Positions 7,132 to 36,147 of a stretch of 43,749 nt of DNA are shown here, piece by piece. The stretch lies in NCBI GenBank assembly GCA_947168815.1, contig CAMVNG010000008.1, positions 1 through 43,749 on the forward strand. The letters are read 5' to 3'. Under the pieces are notes generated by a model that was given only the letters and a program-made list of their open reading frames with translations, searched no databases and was not told the DNA's origin. The stretch's first letter is position 1. The number at the start of each line of letters is the position of its first letter. The translations under genes were made by a program, and so were the position numbers. Source of the stretch: an uncultured bacterium (GTDB taxonomy: Bacteria; Patescibacteriota; Gracilibacteria; Absconditabacterales; Absconditicoccaceae).

Positions 7132-7671
7132 TTAAGCCGTAGCAGTAGGAGTTGGAGGATAAATGCTAGTGTATGGCGAACTAACTATCCAGCTTGGAGT
7201 TGGATATGGAGCTAATCTATTGATTAACTGTGCCGTCTGAGCTGCATTATTTGCCTCTAACTTAGCTTCTGCAAGGTCTGTTCTAAGTTGTGTGATAGTA
7301 TCTGCACACATCATATCAAGAATCTTTTGTGTATTAGCAGTTCAAGAAGCTATAATAGCAGCAGTATTTTGCTGTCATTGGAGAATAGCTTTCTCTATAT
7401 TGCTGTTTACATTACAAAACCCTTGAGTAATCAATGTTGTTTGATTAGCCAGTCCTTGCTGTGCCATTAATTGCTGTTGCCACTGCGTATTGTTATTTAT
7501 CAATCATTCTATATTGTTTGTGTTGTTGTTATTGTTCTGTCCGTTCAATAACCATGCGGCTGCGTTGTTTCAGAGACCTCCAAATCAACCAAAGCCACCA
7601 CCCATAAACAAGAATAGAATCAAGATGATTAACAAAGTGCTGTTTCACAGTCAGAAGTTTTGAGTTTCCAT
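7132..7671 (-). CDS. Gly/Asn-rich membrane-associated phage protein (179 aa)
   Basis: A short start (METQNFGLGN) is followed by one hydrophobic helix (LLIILILFLFM, ~12-24). Then come GGGFGGFGGLG, an Asn-rich stretch (NNNNNT, INNN) and a long Gln/Ala helix (LRTDLAEAKLEANNAAQ) ending in Pro/Thr (PPTPTATA). The plan, hydrophobic N-terminus then GGFGG then long helix, recurs in hypothetical proteins of many tailed phages near tail genes. UGA supplies glycines in the GGFGG run. Role unknown; a tail-tip or membrane-contact function is conceivable. Confidence 0.65.
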
Positions 7672-7732
7672 GCTTTGTCATAACAAAGAAATAAAAAGCT
7701 GGTGTGTACTGGATTATGCTTGCCACCGTTTT

Positions 7733-11000: not shown

Positions 11001-11720
11001 TTATAGTCAATAATTTCATTTAGTTTGATTATAGTAGTTTAATACATCTGAGTCTGTTCGTACTGTCGTTTCTATTATTGCATTAGAAATATATAATCTA
11101 GTTTGATTGTCTCAAAATCAAAATAATATAGTGTCCCTGCTACTATTGTCTGTCCAAGCCTGTGTTTTTAGTAAAACTCAATCTCTATATAATTTAATTG
11201 TAGTTCCATCCCAAGTTAAAACTCAATTATACCATGTCCCTAATACTCATTCACTAGATGCACTCGTGCCTATTGAAATAGCACCAAATGTTGAATTGCT
11301 TGTATTATATTGTACTCAAAATCCATAACCATTAGGTCGTCAATTAAAATCTCAACACATAAAAAATCATGGGTCTGTGTCTAATCAGTTAGTATTCTTC
11401 ATTCAAAATATTAAGAAGTAATGGTCTGATGTTGTTTTAAGATTATAGTAGTAGTTTATAGTAAACTGTGTAAGCACTCAACTCAATGATGTATTATACA
11501 TATTTCACTCTAAATACATACAACTAACCCCATTATAATCTTGTATAGTTCATCATGTTCATGACAAATCCCTATTATTTCAACTTTGGTCTGTAAAATT
11601 GTATGTAGAATTAAGAGGGTAGTAACAAATAGTATTAGCTCAAGGTTGCCATCAAGTAGGTCGTATCTGCTTCTCTACCCCATTCACTCGCATTGTTGCT
11701 CTCTTTAGTTTATATCACAT
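11001..11720 (-). CDS. LamG/concanavalin-like fold protein, copy 2 (239 aa)
   Basis: Jelly-roll domain of the laminin-G type. PGANTICYYPLNSTYNFTDQSG marks the first strands, and WYNGVLTWDGTTIKLYRDG is the characteristic central hairpin, followed by a terminal ETTVRTDSDVLNYYNQTKG block. These domains bind carbohydrate on virion fibres. It is a clear paralogue of the gene just upstream, sharing PGANTI-YYPL and the end DYYNQTK/NYYNQTK, with 5 nt between them. Expected on the tail as host-surface binding protein. Confidence 0.75.
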
Positions 11721-11725
11721 CTCTA

Positions 11726-12427
11726 TTAGCTTATACCATATAAAGCTTTAGTTTGGTTATAGTAGTCTGCCACTTCTTGTGCTGTCCATCAAACATTTTC
11801 AAAGATTACATTTGAGAAGTTTCATATTACTGGGTTTTCGTAGTTTACTCAACATCATATAGCTGTGTATCCTGTTCTTATGCCATATGACACTCATCCA
11901 TTATAATAACTAACTCAATTTACGTAAATTGACATATTGTTGTTTGAGTGCGAATATACTATATTCAATCGTGCATCTTGTGGCACTAAATATCATGTAT
12001 CCCTATCATTACTCCATCAACCATTGTATAGCATCCATGTTTCTGGTTTAATCCACGAAATCCAACAGTTTGGATTATTTCTCGTACCTACAGCCATTAT
12101 ATTCCAATGACCGCTATCATAAGCCCCTGTTCTACAAAACCAAAAATTAACAGTAAAGTCTTGATTTCATGTGAATAGGCTCTCACTTCTATATAGATAA
12201 GCACTTCAATTACAATTTGCACAATCAACTCAATTATAAGTTCAAAACTGTACTGAGTTATTAGAAAGAGTATGTCAATTCCCACTTTCATCACTTGTTG
12301 TTGTGATAGAAGTGAGAGGATAATAAGCAATAGTATTAGCTCATGGTGTTCGTGGTGCTACATACTCTCATATATAAGCATTCTTTAATTCTTTCTCTGT
12401 ATTGTTTGGATATAGATATACTCACAT
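11726..12427 (-). CDS. LamG/concanavalin-like fold protein, copy 1 (233 aa)
   Basis: The N-terminal 30 residues (MGVYLYPNNTEKELKNAYIGEY) differ from copy 2. From RTPGANTIAYYPLTS onward it follows the same jelly-roll plan, including a WHTL strand, the NIVYSHSNNNMSIYVNG hairpin and the end WTAQEVADYYNQTKALYGIS. It probably arose by tandem duplication followed by strong divergence of the binding face. Located between the fibre with NTDAATKKYVD and copy 2, which supports an adhesin role. Confidence 0.75.
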
Positions 12428-14378: not shown

Positions 14379-15539
14379 TTATTCATAAATTATAAATGTT
14401 CTATCATCTCAAATTCATCAATATTCTTGCTCGTAATCTTCTTCTGTACATGGCTCGTCCATTTTTCAATCTATAATAGCCGTAGTCTGCGACTTTGTGT
14501 AATAATTAGACATATCTCATCCTCAACCACCTCAACTAGATCATTGCTTTAGATTTTGTAAAATTAAATCCAAAATATTTGTCTCTTCTGTATATTCTTC
14601 ACTTATTTTTATTTCTGATTTTATTCATCAATTAGCATTAATCGTTATTCTCCTGCTCTGAATCAATCCTAAATATTCCAAAGGTAATCGCTCGTATCAT
14701 GTGTTTAGTCTGATATTTTTTCTATCTCATATATAGAAATCCCACCAGTCTGTATCTCTACTCACATTTACACTAGGAATAGCTTTTCAGCTAGGAACTG
14801 TCAGAGTTGCTTCTCATTCGTATTTTTCAAAAATCAATTTATATTCATTATTGAAAACTGAATTACTTTGATTTCCGTTTTCGTTTTGTATGTATGAATA
14901 GAATTTATCCATGCTATCTTTCCAACTCCAATCTGCGATATTCGTTTCTCTTGTATTTCTCACATCATATTCCCATACTCCATCTAATACTTTTCAGGTA
15001 TTTTTACTCACTTCAAGCACTCCATCTTTTACTCTTACTATCAATTTTTTTTCACTTTCTCGACAGTATTTCAGAATATCATAAAAGCTCGTTCAAACAT
15101 CAAATTGTCTTGTGATAGTTGTCTGACAATCATTTAATCAAAGAGAAATCGGTAATGCGAACGTTGTGTTTAATTCTGTAAAGATTGCAGAAACTACTGA
15201 CTGGATTGTTGCTCAGCTGTAATTCTTTGTGCTTCTTATAATTCTGTTCTGTAAATAACTAAGCCAATTTTCTGATTGAATTTCTATGCTATCAGTTTTG
15301 ACTAATACATCTGTTATATATCCATCAAAAAGTTTAACAATTTGTCAGATTTTTAATCAATATAAAACAGATATTCTATTCCCCTTTGTCACAGGTCTTT
15401 CTTGTAATCGTTTTTCAGTAGGAAATCTAAATTTTAACTTTCCACCTTTATTGACTTCATCATCTACCTGTAAAGAAAAAACATCGTTTATTACAGCGAC
15501 TACTTTATTTTCTCAATTTTTAATCTGAATCGTCAGCAT
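14379..15539 (-). CDS. Tail protein, ReqiPepy6 Gp37-like / distal tail hub candidate (386 aa)
   Basis: Reads MLTIQIKNGENKVVAVINDVFSLQVDDEVNKG..., then RPVTKGNRISVLYGL and LFDGYITDV, the 'kGnrI.vl.g...lFdGyI' signature of phage hub/Gp37-like tail proteins. DDCQTTITRQF-type strands and a FYDILKYC helix follow. The C-terminus has a Gly/Ser run (GSSGGGGGD, mostly UGA) and an acidic tail. It overlaps the tail-terminator gene by 20 nt. It probably links the tail tube tip to the baseplate. Confidence 0.7.
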
Positions 15540-16008
15540 TCTCTACTTCTTCATTAGTAGGTAAAACTTCTGTTCCTGTCTCTGTCTCTGTTGGAGTAGG
15601 TTCTTGTGTATAATCGTAATTTTGCTTTAATAGATAAATACTTCAGAATATTATCTCGTTTGTTTCTTTATCGTAGTATGGAGCTAAGAACTGTCTGAAA
15701 GCGATAGTTCACTCCCAATCTTCACTCAAAGAACCATTAAATTTTCCTAATAATTCTCTGATTTTTGCTCTGATTTCATATCATTTTTTATAATCTTCAT
15801 ACTTCACTACTGTATCAATAAGGACAGGGAATATATCTATTCACTTCACATAATCTTCAATCACATCAGGATAACCCCAATCTCATTCGTTAAAAACTAC
15901 AGCAGGTCATTCTCCCATTTCTACTTTGAGAAATCCTACTCTATTTGTTCAGATATTCGCATTAAGTAAATAAGTCTGTAATGCTTTTGGTCGGTTTGGT
16001 GTTATCAT
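15520..16008 (-). CDS. Tail terminator/completion-like protein with Glu-Thr tail (162 aa)
   Basis: A globular domain (MITPNRPKALQTYLLNANI..., DYVKGIDIFPVLIDTVVKYE) of the size and style of tail terminator proteins is followed by an extended acidic end containing PTPTETETGTEV. That Pro/Thr/Glu tail is shared with the capsid and tail-tube proteins of this phage. Lies immediately after the gp10-like gene (7-nt overlap), as tail terminator genes do in neck cassettes. Function inferred from position. Confidence 0.55.
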
Positions 16009-16487
16009 TGTTTCATGTAATCGATATAAATTTTTTGAATATTTTTACGTTCTCTATCCACTACTTTTTGAAAGGTGTGTCTTCCTTTGATTCCTTTTTC
16101 TGCGATACTTCTTGCTATAACATAGATCACTCATTTATCGGTATAATGGAGACTATCATATTTTTGAGTTGCTCCGCCTTTAATCATTCATTTACGAGCA
16201 GTCCATCATACCAAAGCGTCTAATGGCGGGAATTTTCATGGCTTGCGTCCATACTCCATTATAGGAGCATAAGCCAAAGCACTTCATACTTCCACCAGTC
16301 AATGCTTTACTAATCTGTAATCTATGCTTCTTGCTAGAGTTCATAAATCGTAAACTTTATCTTCTTTCAGCTGGAGACTGATTTTTTCAGCCAGATATTC
16401 TCAGCAATATTTTAATGCTTTATCAGAACTATTTTGAAGGCTCTTTACTGCTTTATTTAATGCTTGCTGATCTACTGAATATTTCAT
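16002..16487 (-). CDS. HK97 gp10-like neck / tail-completion protein (161 aa)
   Basis: The central segment AYAPIMEYGRKPGKFPPLDALVGW plus the later VIARSIAEKGIKGRHTFQKV is the recognisable signature of the HK97 gp10 / minor tail family: 'YA.yvE.GT..' then 'ia..I.ekG...r.Ff'. These proteins act at the head-tail joint during assembly. Its neighbours on both sides are the other neck proteins. Confidence 0.75.
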
Positions 16488-16825
16488 TATCACTTAACCA
16501 ATTTGATAAAATATTTATTAAATCTGACTGAATTTTTATCTTGTGCTTCATACTTCGCTATCACTTGATAACTTTCTCATTTCCACACTACATAATCAGT
16601 CGGTTTGATTTCTACTATTGGAGCTGTATGGAGTTTAAGAACGTTTACTTGGACATCGTCTATATGCTGTAAAAGTTGTAAATCTTTATAATTCAAAGAA
16701 CTTACTCTGCATGGAATCTCCAACTCACATTCCTTGTATTGCTTTTTAGAGATTCAGTCCTCATAAACTGTACTTTCTTCTCTACTCCTTACCCATACTT
16801 TATTACAGAAATAATCTTGTATCAT
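16487..16825 (-). CDS. Head-tail stopper/closure-like protein (112 aa)
   Basis: MIQDYFCNKVWVRSREEST..., with a C-terminal part PTDYVVWKGESYQVIAKYEAQD. The 'D.v...g..Y.V....' strand pattern is typical of head-closure (stopper) proteins. Shares a base with the gp10-like gene stop/start. Assigned mainly from position between the adaptor and gp10-like genes. Confidence 0.6.
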
Positions 16826-16848
16826 CTTTGAGCGGTTTATTAATTAAA

Positions 16849-17274
16849 TTAATGAGGATTAACATTCCAGAATCCGTATTGGTCTGAATCCATGTATCTA
16901 TCCAGAATCTTTAATGTCTGCATATCTATAGGTATTCAGAAGAATGTAATAGCAGAAGCATTATCAAAATTTTCTGTAATCGTGTAATCATCGATTTTTT
17001 CTGTATAGCTTGTTCTTTTCCCTGTAACTGCTGACTGCTTGAGCTGTACGAAATAAACGTAATAATTATCTACTAGACTTATCGTAGCAAGTTTTAAATC
17101 GGCAGGATACTCATAAGTTTCTCCATCAATAGTAAATTGTTCTTCATCAATCTGTGTCCAAATTTTATTGGATACAATATTGATATATCTATCAATCTGA
17201 TTGTCTGCCAAATCGATTAAGTCTTGATTTATGCTTCATTCTCTAAGCTCTTCAGCTGTAATTATTGCTCCCAT
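16849..17274 (-). CDS. Head-tail adaptor (gp6/gp15-like) protein (141 aa)
   Basis: A helical protein MGAIITAEELREGSIN..., LADNQIDRYINIVSNKIW, with LKLATISLVDNYYVYF in the middle. This is the helix bundle arrangement of head-tail connector adaptors (gp6 of HK97, gp15 of SPP1). First gene of the neck cassette, starting 19 nt after the distal tail gene. In most siphophages this gene directly follows the major capsid gene, which is not so here. Confidence 0.65.
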
Positions 17275-17292
17275 TTAATTTTTAATTAGTGA

Positions 17293-18207
17293 TTAAAATA
17301 AATTCTTCCATTTAACAACCGCCTCGATACATTCATTATCTCGCACTCATGTATCTATCGAGACTATATTTTTTCACAGAGTTAGACTTGGTCGGTCGCT
17401 TCATGCTTCTACCAGTCAAGAAATATCTGTTTTATTATCTCCATGTTGGAAATAACACCTCCTTTTTTCTGAATCTACGATTATTTTATCTCATATATTC
17501 ATTCAAAGTTCTATTACATTATTGATATACATTATCTGTAATCAATATTCAGACTGGATGATAATCTTTATTCTATCGTAAGGGAAATTATCATCATCAT
17601 TATCTTTTATTTCCATTTCTACATTTAATGGAGTATCTACAGTTCAGATATAATCTATCCTTACCATTTCTTGATGATAAGCTCGGTAGAATGGTAATTT
17701 AACAGGTAGTTTTATTCATGCTAGAGTATTTTTTGTTTCAAATGAATATTCTTGTTTAGAATAGAAATATGGACTATCTGTAATTACTTCAGCACTAATT
17801 CATACCCACTTTTCATTCGCAAAATCAGAAAGTTGTATTCATTGATATACTTGTGCTTTACATTCCCACAAACTTCCATCTACATCCATAAATGATAAAT
17901 CTTTCCAGACTTTATCATTAAATGGAGATGGATTTCATTCAGGAGCAAAAGCCCTCTGTACTTTACTCAATAATGCTCGCCTTTCCTGTTCTGTATCTGC
18001 CAAAATATCAAACAAAAATCTGACTCTCCTATTTTTTAGCAAAGTTGGAGAAACGTATTCTCCATGTCTAATTGCGTATTTTTCACTGCTCGCACTCGTA
18101 GCCACTTCATAAAAGCTGAACTCCTTTAAACATAAAATTCCTCCTTCCTGTTTGAAAAGCGGATTATTTACGAAGGTCAATCAGTTATATTTTACGTTAT
18201 AAGCCAT
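17293..18207 (-). CDS. Distal tail protein (Dit), siphovirus tail-component family (304 aa)
   Basis: The N-terminal hub domain has LCLKEFSFYEVATS, YAIRHGEYVSPTLLKNRRVRF and FDILADTEQERRALLSKVQRAF, the standard Dit layout: 'G.yv...........v...f.i.g.t..er..ll.kl...f.P'. The C-terminal half (from ~150) is a beta-sandwich (RIDYIGTVDTPLNVEMEI, IVDSEKRRCYF). Dit forms the hexameric hub at the tail tip. Preceded by its own late promoter. Confidence 0.8.
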
Positions 18208-18250
18208 TATTTTATTGTACATTCTGCGGTGTTCTTATATAAACAGCTGT

Positions 18251-18278
18251 AATATAATCAAAAATAAAAAACTGTTAG
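18251..18278 (-). promoter_or_regulatory. Late-type promoter of Dit
   Basis: Minus strand CTAACA (18278-18273), 16 bp, TATATT (18256-18251), with GATTATATTACAG as in the portal and fibre promoters. Start codon 43 nt downstream. Confidence 0.65.
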
Positions 18279-18294
18279 ATTTTTACTAACAGCA

Positions 18295-18794
18295 TTAAAT
18301 TAATTTAAATTTATTTAAGATATATTGCTCAAACTCAAACTCACTACTGAATTTAAGATTCTTGAATTTATTTAATCATTCAGGATTTTTAGTAAGTCAA
18401 ACCATTTCTAATAAATAAGAAATCTGACTATTTGTTAAATCTAAAATCTTTTCTTTTGTATAAGATGGGTAATAATGCATAATCATACAGATAGTCCAAA
18501 CTATTATTGCCTCCGAATATTTAGTATCTCATTCAGAGGCTTTTATGCTAAACCCAACTCTTGTAATATCTTTTCAATTAAAACCTTATGTTCTGTAACT
18601 GGTAGATCATTATTTAATATTTTTTCAAATTCTGATCGTTCTCCTTCTATACAATATTTCTCTAAAACTTCCATTACAGACAGTCATGTATCTTTCATTG
18701 TAGGCTCTCTGAATACTCGTTTTTTATCTCATAAAACTACTTCAGATTTCTTATATCCCTGTAAAAATTCTTCAAGATTTATTGCGTTTGCCAT
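18295..18794 (-). CDS. Tail assembly chaperone gpGT, -1 frameshift product (about 166 aa)
   Basis: Extended product made when ribosomes slip -1 on GGGTTTA (18555-18549). After the slip the frame gives IKASEGDTKYSEAIIVW... YPSYTKEKILDLTNSQISYLL and ends FKLI at 18295, adding about 80 residues to gpG. In lambda-like siphophages the G and GT proteins coat the tape measure protein and recruit tail tube subunits. Position right after the tail tube gene agrees. Here the tape measure gene is not next, but 12 kb upstream in transcription order. Confidence 0.8.
18509..18555 (-). promoter_or_regulatory. Programmed -1 frameshift signal
   Basis: Heptamer G-GGT-TTA (18555-18549) lies in the right phase for X-XXY-YYZ slippage, three codons before the gpG stop. 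Eight nucleotides downstream, 18540-18531 pairs with 18518-18509 in a 10-bp stem (one G-U) around a 12-nt loop. Slippery site, spacer and stimulatory stem are all present. Confidence 0.85.
18543..18794 (-). CDS. Tail assembly chaperone gpG (83 aa)
   Basis: Zero-frame product MANAINLEEFLQGYKKS... ending LQELGLA. A small acidic helical protein directly downstream of the tail tube gene, with the frameshift signal at its 3' end. VFREPTMKDTGLSVMEVL is the typical 'f..Pt..d......' region of gpG-like chaperones. Confidence 0.8.
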
Positions 18795-18818
18795 TTATAG
18801 TATGCATTTAAATAAAAT

Positions 18819-18900
18819 AGCAGAATAGCATTGACAGGAACGAAAGGAAACCTGTCGCCATTCTGCTGTTTTATGGAGTTCGAGGACATGCTCGAACCCC
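18819..18900 (-). terminator. Two strong hairpins between tail tube and chaperone genes
   Basis: The first in transcription order is a 10-bp hairpin with GTTCGAG/CTCGAAC core (18875-18900). The second has AGCAGAAT/ATTCTGCT outside and GACAGG/CCTGTC inside (18819-18867) followed by TATTTTATTT. They likely attenuate transcription or protect the tail tube mRNA 3' end, keeping tube protein in excess over chaperone. Confidence 0.6.
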
Positions 18901-18922
18901 TATTCTTTCGTTTTTACAGAAA

Positions 18923-19765
18923 CTAGGCTGTTTCAGTCTCTGTTTCAGTTTCAGTAGGCGTCTCAGTTTGTGAGAATCCGATGAAATCTTGCTTTTTGAT
19001 AACTCATGTTATTTCTACAGGGAATCAAACAGTAGTATTATCGCTATCAGCTATTTGCTGAAGCATTGCTTTATTTGCTTGACAGTTCTCAAGGAAAGTT
19101 TTAATCATTTTCTTTTCTCCTTGATATTCAAATTCATTAACGATTACCATTACAAATGGTTCTGCTAATGTATTTGCTTTATGATCCATCAATTTAGCAG
19201 TTGTGTTAGTTGCACTGTAAACTACTGTAATTTTAGTATTAGTAGGAGAATTAGCAGTCAATTTTCATGTAGTAGGAGTAGCTTTCAATTTGATGTAAGA
19301 AGCCCCAAATACATTTACTCATACTGTATAATCAGTTGTAACAGTAAGAGTAACTTCTTCTCCATTTACTAAAGCTTTTACAGATGATACAGTAACAGCC
19401 GATCAATCACCATTAGAATATTTAAGGAGTAATCCTTTATCTAACTCCCATTCATACGGCATCCAACTTTCACTTTCATTTGATACTGTCTCAGCATGCA
19501 CTTCAACAAGTCCACTTTGAAGAATAGCCAATTTTTCAATTGTCAATTCGTGAACATCTACATTTACAGTAACTTTGTTTCAATCTTTAGTCTTCTTGAT
19601 AACTCCGTTAGAGTAAACGTCTTCTATGCTTTCTCATGCTGGAGCTAATGATTGGTCTTTATAGAAACCTAATTGTAATAGGTCATCTCACCAATCCTTA
19701 GCGATAAAGAACTCTGCTGAGTTTGGTATCATGTGTCATGGATTTATAGGTTTTTGTAGACTCAT
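18923..19765 (-). CDS. Major tail tube protein with Glu-Thr tail (280 aa)
   Basis: Begins MSLQKPINPGHMIPNSAEFFI. The middle contains VYSNGVIKKTKDGNKVTVNVDVHELTI and EFEYQGEKKMIKTFLENC, consistent with the tail tube fold in which a beta sandwich is flanked by a helix. It sits two genes after the major capsid and just before gpG, the canonical place. The last ~15 residues are Thr/Glu/Pro repeats (TETPTETETETETA), also found on the capsid protein. Confidence 0.75.
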
Positions 19766-19791
19766 GTTTTCTTAGACATAGTGAAATAAAA

Positions 19792-20103
19792 TTATTTTTT
19801 CTTTGACCGTTTTTTAGAAATCTTTACCTTTGGTTCTTCAACCTCTTCATCTTCAACCCCATCAGCATCTTCTTCAGTCTTTCCGACATTTATGTCGGAA
19901 ACATCTGAATTTTCAGCTTCTTCATTAGGCTGTTCTGCTTTTTCTTCCTTTGGTTTTTTAACCTCAGGAGCTTTTACAGGAGCTTTTCATGAAACAGGTT
20001 TCATTACACTTGGAAAGTATTCTACTTCAGCACCACTAACAACGTCTCATTTCTTGTAGTCTTTATTAGCAATGCGACAGTCCATTATTATTTCGTAAAG
20101 CAT
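19792..20103 (-). CDS. Small virion-region protein with charged C-terminus (103 aa)
   Basis: MLYEIIMDCRIANKDYKKGDVVSG is a short beta-rich N-terminus. The rest is low complexity, first Pro/Lys/Glu, then very acidic, then a basic end (KISKKRSKKK). Position between the capsid and tail tube genes suggests a head decoration or joining protein. AAAGGA is visible 8-13 nt before the ATG, one of the few Shine-Dalgarno-like sites here. Confidence 0.6.
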
Positions 20104-20132
20104 AATAATTTCCTTTACCGATATAAAATTTT

Positions 20133-20156
20133 AAGGGGCTAGAGCTTAGCCCCCTT
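20133..20156 (-). terminator. Intrinsic terminator directly after major capsid gene
   Basis: AAGGGG-CTA/TAG-CCCCCTT stem with short loop starting 4 nt past the TAG stop, followed by AAAATTTTAT on the minus strand. Partial termination here would make capsid mRNA the most abundant. Confidence 0.65.
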
Positions 20157-20159
20157 ATG

Positions 20160-21419
20160 CTACGCAGTTTCTGTTTCAGTCTCAGTTTCTGTAGCTGTCT
20201 CAGTTTCTGTAGGAGTTGCTACTTCGTTTGTATAAACAGGCTTGTCTACAGTGTTTTTAATAACAACTTCAGTAGGTCTCTTACTTCCTGCTGTTACGTT
20301 ATAGATGAAAGCTTCTTTATTAGCATATTGGAATTCTGCAGTAATAGTTGACTGTAGAGATTCGTATATGATTTTAGAGCTTGAGCTTTCACGATAGAAT
20401 GAGAAGAAGATATCGTTACCGAATTCTCTGTCTCTCATAGCGTGAATTAAAGGTCTAGCTTTTCAAACAAAGATGTGTCCGTTCTCGATTTGATTATCGA
20501 TTACAAATGGAATCTCTGCATTCAAAGAGTCAGAAACATAAGCAATTAATTTGCTTCCTGCCTTCTGAGCACCTCTGCTTTCATCATAAACTCCATTTCT
20601 CCATCCGTTAGCGATCTTGTTTTTAGTCCAAGCATTTAAAGCGATAACTTCTGGTTCTCCATATCTTTGAGCGATAGTCAAAAGACATGCTTCAAAGTCA
20701 TCTTCAGCAAGATTACCATTGGCATTGAAAATAACTCAACCTGCATTAGCGATTGCTTCTTTCCATCCACCCATAGTAGTTCTTCAATCTCATGGATTTT
20801 TATTTTGTCTACCGTAGTAGAGAGTTTTATCGATTTCTTGAGACATTTCGTCGAACTTAGCCAATCTTTCTAGATCAAGCAAGTCATCCATGTCTTTCTT
20901 TTTAAGAGCAGCTGCTCTCTTTGTAACATAGATAGTTTTTGAGAAATCTTGGATTACATTTGTAAATGCGTCAGAATCTACAGCTTTGTAATCTTCAGTG
21001 ATTCCGTCTTCTTTATCTACCTTAGCCATGATTTTGATTTCTGCATCTTTAGCGATTGCAGTTGCAGGAGTGTTTCCATATCATCTAACAACAGTCAATA
21101 CATAACCGTTTACTGTTGGATTAGATTCTTTAGCAGTAACTTTTATTACTTCTTCTCCACACATTAATTGATATCCTTCAGTTATTCTTTCGAATAAATC
21201 TTTATCAATTTTTATTGAAGTAGCAGCACCACTAGCGACAGCTTCAGTAACTGTTCCAGCTCTTACTACTTGCTTTTGAGAGTAGTAAGTCAATTCTACG
21301 CTTTCTACATTTCCACCATATTCTGCTCTTTCAAGCATAACAAGGTTTCTAGAAGGTACTAAATCAAGAATAGCAGTAACCCATTCTTGAAGTTTGAAAT
21401 CAGTTGATAAGTGTAACAT
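20160..21419 (-). CDS. Major capsid protein (SU10/DUF5309-like)
   Basis: A 419-residue protein: MLHLSTDFKLQEWVTAILDLVPSRNLVML, VELTYYSQKQVVRAGTVTEA, MCGEEVIKVTAKE, a beta strand block, then FSKTIYVTKRAAALKKKDMDDLL (spine helix), LTIAQRYGEPEVIALN and the C-terminal beta domain with FFSFYRESSSSKIIYESL. The plan and order are those of HK97-fold capsids of the SU10/DUF5309 type. It lies right after the scaffold gene. The last residues are a Pro/Thr/Glu repeat (PTETETATETETETETA), unusual for a capsid protein. Confidence 0.8.
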
Positions 21420-27265: not shown

Positions 27266-28306
27266 TTAACTCTTATGAATTAAATCTAATCGTTGCTTTC
27301 TGATTTCATCGCTTATCTTAAACATCATTAAAGGTGGCACACTCATTCAGATTAAATAGACTTTATCCACATTTAAGAAGTTATAATCTGTAGGTCGACT
27401 TCATCAGCAATACAACTCTGTATCGTTTAGCTTTCTATCTTCTCACCAAACTATATTTTTATCACTTGCGGTGATTGTCGGTAGCACTTTATCATCGTAA
27501 ATCCATGATACATTGAAAAAGTTCCTTTTCCCCTCATATCTATAATCTGCTATTTCTAACGAATTATCTCCATACTTCGCACACTTTGATACTTCTAAAT
27601 ACTTTCATGTTAACGGTCTATCTTTCCTTCAACTCCTATCGTGTATTTCTTTAAATAAAATCGGCTCTTCGTTAAATTCTAACTTCAGCTTTGGTAAATC
27701 ATACTCTTTTCTGTGTGCAATGATGAATACACGCTCCCTTTTCTGAGGTAATCACATAGTAGCTCAGTTTAAAAGAAAAATCTGAGTCTTATATCATAGT
27801 TCCGTAAACCTTTCATGTATTAGCTTTAAATATCATTTCGCCTTTCCTTGTATCAATCCTTTTACATTTTCTGCTATCACAACTTTAGGATTTAGCTTTT
27901 CTACGATATCCAGATAATCAAAGAATAAATCACTTAGTATTTGCTTAGCTTGTCATTCTCTGAATACCTTTTCTTTTCATCGTACCCTTTCCCTTAATCA
28001 TGCAGTAGAAAACGTGCTACACGGTGGACTTCAATCTAATAAATCAATATCAAATAAGTCTGATGGAATCTCCTTTTTAGGAATGTTTTTAAACTCCTGC
28101 ACTCCCATTAGATAACGATACTTAGTAGGAAAGTTCTTCTGATATACTTTATCCATCTGTGGATCTATTTCGCATGTCCCTATTATCTCATATCCTGCAT
28201 TCTTATATCACATACTACTTCATCCCCCACATGAGAAGCAACTAAACACTTTATATCCGTTATGCTCGACTTTCTCCAAGTCTTTTAGTTTCCATTTGTA
28301 CTCCAT
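27266..28306 (-). CDS. DNA (cytosine-5-)-methyltransferase (346 aa)
   Basis: All main C5 methylase motifs appear in order: motif I FSCGGGSSMGYKNAGYE, motif IV DGSPPCSTFS with the catalytic Cys, motif VI AENVKGL, motif VIII QKRERVFIIA and a target-recognition region before the C-terminal motif X-like SVPPLMM. UGA provides glycines in motifs I and IV. No cognate restriction enzyme is nearby, so this is a solitary methylase, probably protecting phage DNA or marking it. Directly preceded by a ParB-like gene. Confidence 0.9.
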
Positions 28307-28313
28307 CTCCTTT

Positions 28314-28802
28314 CTACTTATCCAAATTAAATTCAAATCAGCATTTAGGACACTTATATTCGAACTCTCCTAAATCGTCTATCTCTATCTCATGATTTAC
28401 AAACGGAATCCTTTCTACTTTTAATGGGAATAATTCCTCAGACTTTAATTCGATTTCTCATATACTCAAATCAAAGTCCAATTCCTCTAATTCTAGTCTT
28501 AAATTCTTTTCATCTCGTGGACTTTCATTCAGCTTATTATCCAGTATTCTTAGCTTTTTTATTTGTGTTTCTGTTAAATTTTCTATTTTTAGCACAGGGA
28601 CTTTTTCCATCCCCAATTTCATCGCTGCAAGTAATCTACCATGTCCAATAATCACCACATTATTCTGATCAACCACTAAAGGTTGTGTAAATCAGAACTC
28701 TCTAATGCTGTTGGCTATACGGTTCACTTGCTCGCTATCATGAACTTTATTATTGAATTCGTATGGGATTAAATCAGCGACTTTCATGTCGGCTGTTTTC
28801 AT
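28314..28802 (-). CDS. ParB/sulfiredoxin-like nuclease domain protein with zinc ribbon (162 aa)
   Basis: MKVADLIPYEFNNKVHDSEQVNRIANSIREFGFTQPLVVD gives the ParB N-terminal domain, with VVIIGHGRLLAAMKLGMEKVPVL as the GxxR box. The C-terminus adds a short ribbon (YKCPKCGFEF). In phages such ParB-like proteins are often fused or adjacent to DNA methylases. Two in-frame ATGs (28802, 28787) are possible. Its start lies in the end of a 73-residue gene. Confidence 0.8.
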
Positions 28803-34794: not shown

Positions 34795-36147
34795 TTACAT
34801 GTGACTTCTTACAACTTTTTCTAAATGCTCATCTGCCATAATCAGCTTATTATCATATAACTTTTGATTCTCTACAAGCTCCCTTAATTTCATATCTCGA
34901 TAAAATTTCAATGGAGAAGGTCTATCAAATTTATCGTAACTTTCGATTAATCTCTTGAAATGTGTATAATTATGTGCTTCTTTATGTTTACCTGATTGAT
35001 TGTAAAAGCAATAAGTATAAGCATAAATAAACATTTTCCAAACATACTCGTTATCTTCTTTCTGATGCCGTGTACTTGCAGTTCAAACTGTTTTTTGCTT
35101 TCTTTTATCTCGTGTATATAATGCGTCTTTACAATGTGCGAATTTATCAATGTAAGAGTATAAACTTGAAGTATAAGCCACGTCTTCATATAATATTCAC
35201 GGTCAAGCATAATCAGTTGGAAATCTGATTAATTTTGCAGTTTCAGCTTTTACGATTTTATTCCAAACTGCTACTCGAAATATATTTCATTTCGTACCTC
35301 TATTCTGCACCATCTCCTCAAATGTATATACTACATTCCTATCAGGATTCGCACTACAACTCAAATAAAACTCTTTATCTTCAATATCTTTACGGATTAA
35401 TGCTGGACAGATAGCAATATCCGTTTTTTGTTCTTTACATGTATTATATAATCTTTCATACATGAAAGGATGGATTATATCATCATTATCACAAAATGCG
35501 ATATATTCTCACTGTGCTAATTCTAATCAAAGATTTCTTGCAAATGATACTCATTTATTTTCCTGATGGTGTGCTACTGCACATCCATAATTATCAGCAT
35601 ATCGTTTGGCTATCTCGTAAGAATTATCACTTGATCCATCATCTATCAATATCAATTCTATATCTTCCATGCTAGAGCTTAGAATACTATCAATAGTCCT
35701 ACACATAAATAATTCTGAATTGTATAATGGAACTATTACTGATAATCTATAGCTTTCACTACTCATTCCACCTTTTCTACTTGGAATTTTTACCTCACAA
35801 TTCCCTACTCATTCTCGAATATATTTACCATCTTTTTTCTCATAAGCTCTAATTTCCATTAATTCATCAGGAGTATATCGTTTTGGTAATTCTACGACTT
35901 CATCTTCAGTCTCTAAGATTATATTTCAATCTTTATCGTATACTCTGTATAGATCATATATGCTTTCAGTTCTACATGCTAGAGTATATCAATGATAACC
36001 CTTGAAAATTGTATAATCAAAGAGATTCAATAATTTATCGTCTTTGTTATCTTCTTCAGGAGATTCTTTGTATCTCAAATATTTTTTATCGTCCACTTCA
36101 TTCGTAGCCACTCGGACAAAGTTTTGTGTCATTGCCATTTTTACCAT
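34795..36147 (-). CDS. Family 2 glycosyltransferase with N-terminal extension (450 aa)
   Basis: The first ~125 residues form an extra domain (MVKMAMTQNFVRVATNEVD..., LYRVYDKDGNIILETEDEVVELPKRYT). From about 130 comes a GT2 domain: SVIVPLYNSELF, LILIDDGSSDNSYEIA, GVSFARNLGLELAQGEYIAFCDNDDII with the D-x-D site, then GILYEDVAYTS. It would transfer a sugar from a nucleotide donor to a phage DNA, a virion protein or a host surface glycan. The N-terminal domain is not one I recognise and may target the enzyme to a virion substrate. No sugar-nucleotide synthesis genes lie nearby. Confidence 0.8.

Follow-up and report, generated by a model that had tools for sequence, protein, structure and literature searches.

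Why would the major capsid protein (MCP) and the major tail-tube protein of a single phage both end in a run of alternating threonine and glutamate residues? This question is raised by a stretch of 43,749 nucleotides, hereafter the window, which corresponds to contig CAMVNG010000008.1 (C8) of the Absconditabacterales assembly GCA_947168815.1 (1,294,114 bp in total). The window is a siphovirus-like phage that reads TGA as glycine (genetic code 25): translation with table 11 gives no open reading frame of 150 aa or more, and table 25 gives a full gene set in which terminase, portal, tape measure, Dit and connector proteins are identifiable. Reading with table 15, as with table 11, gave an unusable gene set. 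The host is assumed, from binning, to be the organism of the same assembly. We propose that the Thr-Glu tails are disordered acceptor tags for O-glycans and that a GT2-family glycosyltransferase encoded by the phage would glycosylate their threonines, thereby sugar-coating the exterior of the capsid and tail tube; from sequence comparisons, we give this reading about three chances in four. All window coordinates below are on the minus strand.

Repeat tags on the capsid and tail-tube proteins

The MCP gene (20160..21419) encodes 419 aa in code 25, belongs to a 12-sequence family (A3) and matches the Pfam family SU10_MCP (2.5e-15). Its product ends in VATPTETETATETETETETA, the tag proper, TPTETETATETETETETA, being encoded with its stop codon at 20160..20216. 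The tail-tube gene (18923..19765; 280 aa) was recognized from its relatives, as 4 of 7 members of its family match phrog_807 (‘major tail protein with Ig-like domain’, best 7.5e-8), and from a weak match to a tail-protein fold. The tube protein ends in SQTETPTETETETETA, with the tag TETPTETETETETA and stop codon at 18923..18967. The single MCP and tube proteins of the window had no match in PHROGs or NCBIfam at E 0.001, and the MCP used as a query found none among phage records and genome contigs.

The original prediction attributed Glu-Thr repeat tails to three proteins. This holds for the MCP and the tube protein, where both tags are strictly C-terminal, but not for a 162-aa protein (15520..16008), where the motif is internal. 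This protein, whose sequence holds EPTPTETETGTEVLPTNEEVENADDSD before the stop codon, is encoded directly 3' of the tail completion/Neck1 gene (phrog_5) and, from its place in the gene order, is probably the tail terminator; it has no PHROGs match at E 0.001. Its PTPTETETGTE motif (15568..15600) lies about 15–25 residues before the C-terminus and includes a 7-residue insertion, TETETGT (21 bp), relative to its closest relative L005, which reads PTP-EVLP. Of the three proteins, this one makes the weakest case.

Such runs are not expected from composition: three (Tx)5 runs were observed in the 52 window proteins of at least 100 aa, against none in 2000 residue shuffles. Across the whole assembly, a DNA pattern coding for TETETE matches only the MCP and tube tails. 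The nearest relative, L003 (96% MCP identity), has both tails, that of the tube being identical to the one in the window and that of the MCP differing by 12 bp in length and by its last residue (A to Q). By contrast, relatives at 84–89% MCP identity and below have neither: their MCPs end in PVPTKEITG or PVNTKEVTE and their tube proteins in GFSQTPSS or similar. The tags are thus recent additions beyond the ancestral C-terminus. The length-variable hexanucleotide repeats originally predicted were confirmed, both by the 6-nt period and by the 12-bp indel. Within the tags, synonymous codons are mixed (ACT/ACA, GAA/GAG), which argues for selection acting at the protein level.

Exposure of the tags is supported by two lines of evidence. 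Residues 267–280 of the tube protein are predicted to be disordered (predicted local distance difference test, pLDDT, below 50) in a model of moderate quality (67.7) with a weak fold match, and, for the P22-like members described below, the C-terminus of the P22 coat protein faces outward and accepts additions (PMC9962691). The AlphaFold2 model of the window MCP is poor (pLDDT 44.5) and unusable for judging the exposure of its C-terminus.

An Ig-like domain following the tags, frameshifted or in frame, was considered and rejected: the tags stop at TAG, and the next genes are 56 bp and 128 bp away. Between the MCP and tube genes lies a gene (19792–20103) for a 103-aa protein that is acidic in its middle part and finishes in a basic KKRSKKK stretch; in the relatives read, its counterparts, which vary in their low-complexity parts, also come after the MCP gene.

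A glycosyltransferase accompanying the tags

The proposed writer on the Thr tags is a GT2-family glycosyltransferase of 450 aa (34795..36147; Pfam Glycos_transf_2, 1.4e-31), which scores 110.1 bits against PF00535, for a curated cut-off of 23.3. Its DDGS/NDGS and DND/DSD motifs are kept across 10 homologs (DND/DSD in all 10). The nearest solved structure is that of GalT1 (5hea, E 4e-36, catalytic domain only), and, in family libraries, the protein resembles polysaccharide glycosyltransferases. In the phages, the genes for GT2 and for the tagged proteins lie apart from each other.

The association between tags and GT2 was counted on contigs of at least 25 kb, pooled over capsid families. Twelve contigs have both a tailed capsid and GT2, none has a tail without GT2, one has GT2 with a tailless capsid and seven have neither (Fisher p=1e-4). 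The p value becomes 2.5e-4 if two entries found through their TE repeats are left out, and 0.0015 if a partial contig (G387) and a probable chimera of two phages (G376, 59 kb), both outside the main count, are added. G376 (L295–L297, IMG/VR) looks like joined code-25 phages, with G108-like and G381-like modules. Tags occur on four separate capsid lineages, the families concerned including Phage_capsid_4 and P22_CoatProtein besides the SU10_MCP family of the window.

The contigs were reached by several routes. A scan of IMG/VR with a (TE)4 pattern gave at least 120 stretches. Among the matches listed, three stretches belong to clear code-25 phages, whose coding density is 0.02–0.07 with table 11 and 0.80–0.84 with table 25. 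Each of these three TE runs forms the C-terminal tail of a virion-module protein. Most of the stretches read arise from chance frames or from linkers of other proteins in standard-code phages. One of the three code-25 phages, the P22-like G109, has both a tagged capsid protein and a GT2 homolog. Others (G110, G113 and G377–G383) were found through GT2 homology, without use of the tails. The capsid protein of G110 (Phage_capsid_4) ends in NYPTPTETETETETA, that of G113 (P22_CoatProtein) in AGTPTETETETETETA and a further one in NPTPTETPTETPTETPTPTN; in G377–G383, the capsid proteins covered finish in PTETATA, PTPTPTE, PTPTETP... or PTET tags. The converse test started from the capsid, with a scan of the P22-like family (30 contigs). 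On those of at least 25 kb, every tailed capsid is accompanied by GT2, which is lacking from two contigs with tailless capsids, G392 (29 kb) and G402 (circular, with a 3545-bp overlap). The original prediction named absence of the tails from close relatives as a finding that would refute it. In the family of the window, this is formally the case at 84–89% MCP identity, but the tailless relative G101 (44,868 bp, complete as judged by a 127-bp end repeat) likewise lacks GT2, which supports a linked writer/substrate pair.

Bacterial chromosomes carry the same enzyme family. A search of 353 genomes of the class at E<1e-60 found GT2 in four, namely in the window phage and in three chromosomes from the same family of bacteria. 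In all three chromosomes, GT2 immediately precedes a gene on the same strand whose product has a long Thr repeat (TETQ, KPTETE or PTPTDAE), the partner repeats being TETETETETQPETQTETETP in G039, KPTETEKPTETE in G005 and EPTPTPTDAEPTPTPTDA in G044. The G044 partner has no similarity to the other two, and the PTPTD pattern is confined to this gene within its genome. By eye, the flanks of the chromosomal GT2 genes (L188–L190) hold housekeeping-like genes. At L188:5063-10228, a bacterial protein of 1721 aa that contains long TET/PETQ repeats is encoded directly 3' of the GT2 homolog.

The type of tag follows the enzyme more closely than the capsid. A single change between the TE and Pro types suffices on the GT2 tree, where every clearly Pro-containing repeat tag belongs to the same clade, whereas three changes are needed on the capsid-body tree. 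The capsid proteins of G109 (TE) and of G379 and G383 (Pro type) are 94–95% identical. These comparisons make it reasonably probable, though less so than the glycosylation of the tags itself, that phages of TGA=Gly bacteria of the Candidate Phyla Radiation (CPR) share a transferable module of two parts, in which a GT2 writer would act on a short C-terminal Thr-alternating tag that non-homologous virion proteins can acquire. The TE or PTET dialect of the tag would correspond to the clade of the writer, and the module would derive from a bacterial system glycosylating the Thr-repeat proteins of the host itself.

Several observations weigh against these proposals. On the capsid-body tree, one change accounts for the presence of tails in the whole P22-like family, so that the effective sample is small and the honest figure for independence is that obtained with independent lineages only (p=0.048). 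Many of the contigs compared are partial. One phage, G112, has GT2 and a tailless capsid protein; in G107 and G108, TE-rich proteins of the virion module occur without a GT2 of the window family; and GT2 was not seen in G387 (24 kb, partial), whose capsid protein is tailed. The closest solved glycosyltransferases cover just the catalytic domain of GT2. The partners in G039 and G005 share 66% identity over the N-terminal 291 residues and are homologous, as are the two neighbourhoods, although the repeats of the partners differ. In G107 and G108 (L199–L202; code 25), the TE-rich C-termini are found on a 128-aa tail-module protein and on a 71-aa protein encoded between the portal and scaffold genes.

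What the tags conserve and how else they might be explained

The tags span some 7 to 35 residues. Threonine occupies every second position in all of them, with one Pro exception in 15 tags, and makes up 42–50% of their residues. Between the threonines stand mainly E, P or A, with a single G, and the last residue is A, Q, N or E. Since threonine stays alternate while Glu ranges from 14 to 40%, being 14% in the PTPTET tails, the conserved property seems to be threonine rather than acidity. This bears on the possibility, part of which was in the original prediction, that the tails are unmodified, acidic and flexible charge or hydration shields, or solubility tails, and that GT2 acts elsewhere, for example on a polysaccharide of the host surface, which would keep out competing phages. 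The acidity and predicted disorder of the tails, the resemblance of GT2 to polysaccharide glycosyltransferases and the TE-rich proteins of G107 and G108 would all fit. A charge shield is nevertheless disfavoured by tails that keep alternate threonines with so little Glu, and it leaves unexplained both the co-occurrence of tails with GT2 and the chromosomal adjacency of GT2 to Thr-repeat genes; we therefore regard this explanation as unlikely.

The hexanucleotide period and the lineage-specific distribution of the tails would also be expected of near-neutral, microsatellite-like C-terminal expansions drifting in length, and copy number does differ, by 12 bp between the window and L003 and by 54 bp between G379 and G382, which are otherwise 99.4–99.9% identical over about 21 kb aligned. 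Such drift is very improbable as the whole explanation, for the same motif recurs at the exact capsid C-terminus in separate lineages and is missing from the rest of the genomes, and its amino acids are kept while its codons are mixed. Hardly more credible is a shared handle, another reading of the original prediction, which, bare or glycosylated, would bind a lectin-like protein of the host surface, a phage protein or divalent ions: it would account for the sharing of one tag by the capsid, the tube and further proteins of the virion module, but no partner gene was found to track the tags, GT2 alone doing so among the genes tested for tracking.

Glycosylation of the tags by the window GT2, also suggested in the original prediction, gains from the tag/GT2 co-occurrence and the other comparative evidence, and can be pictured as follows. 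A bacterial writer/substrate pair was likely taken over by phages of code-25 bacteria. Short repeat tags would then have been gained independently at the C-termini of different virion proteins, their length changing by repeat slippage. GT2 would add, or begin adding, sugar to the tag threonines. The capsid and tail tube would thereby become glycosylated on their outer surface, where the tags are presumably exposed in the window phage. We infer the catalysis on threonine, the sugar used, the exposure and the benefit; the latter might be masking of the particle, tuning of surface hydration or attachment to surfaces.

Other genes, precedents and implications

Three other loci of the window may be mentioned. 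A 184-aa protein (7132–7686) ends in SPYTSIYPPTPTATA; a nearly identical C-terminus is shared by numerous code-25 phages that otherwise differ (G109, G110, G113, G377, G379 and others). Two adjoining genes (11001–12427) encode similar tail-end proteins of concanavalin/LamG-type appearance, unmatched in the otherwise close G101. A gene recognized by eye as a cytosine-5-type DNA methyltransferase (27266–28336) also has no match in G101, where the ParB-like gene neighbouring its position is longer (425 aa).

To our knowledge, capsid and tail glycosylation has so far been described mainly in mycobacteriophages and in a few phages of Gram-positive bacteria. Virion glycosylation was reportedly described by Freeman et al. 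in 2023 for the mycobacteriophages Che8, Corndog and Myrna. The window phage resembles them in encoding its own glycosyltransferase, with intact catalytic motifs, and differs in its regular tag with threonine at every second residue, its one linked GT2 family, the several capsid lineages involved and its TGA=Gly hosts. In mycobacteriophages, both capsid and tail-tube subunits carry glycans at their C-termini, phage glycosyltransferases are needed and the benefit is shielding from antibodies (PMC12619734, PMC12363180). In the same way, the window phage has candidate acceptor residues, the Thr tags, at both capsid and tube C-termini.

Bacterial Ser/Thr-repeat glycoproteins are encoded beside their glycosyltransferases, as is Fap1 with GalT1. 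Adjacency of this kind holds here for the three bacterial copies of GT2 only; unlike these systems, a single GT2 is involved, the putative substrate alternates threonine with E, P or A rather than being Ser-rich, and it is carried by phage capsids. The capsid and tail-tube proteins of phages may also bear Ig-like C-terminal domains, frequently produced by frameshifting. The tags are comparable optional, lineage-specific and presumably surface additions to the C-termini of capsid and tube, but they are low-complexity, only 7 to 35 residues long, in frame with their own stop codon and devoid of an Ig domain.

If the tags are indeed glycosylated by GT2, capsid and tail glycosylation has arisen in phages of bacteria that use TGA as glycine, and a single enzyme, along with a tag about 7 to 35 residues long, would be enough to sugar-coat several unrelated capsid families. 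The co-variation of tag and writer gives a handle on enzyme specificity, and the two would constitute a protein-glycosylation pair that is easy to test and might prove portable. This would also hint at the role of the homologous bacterial writers.

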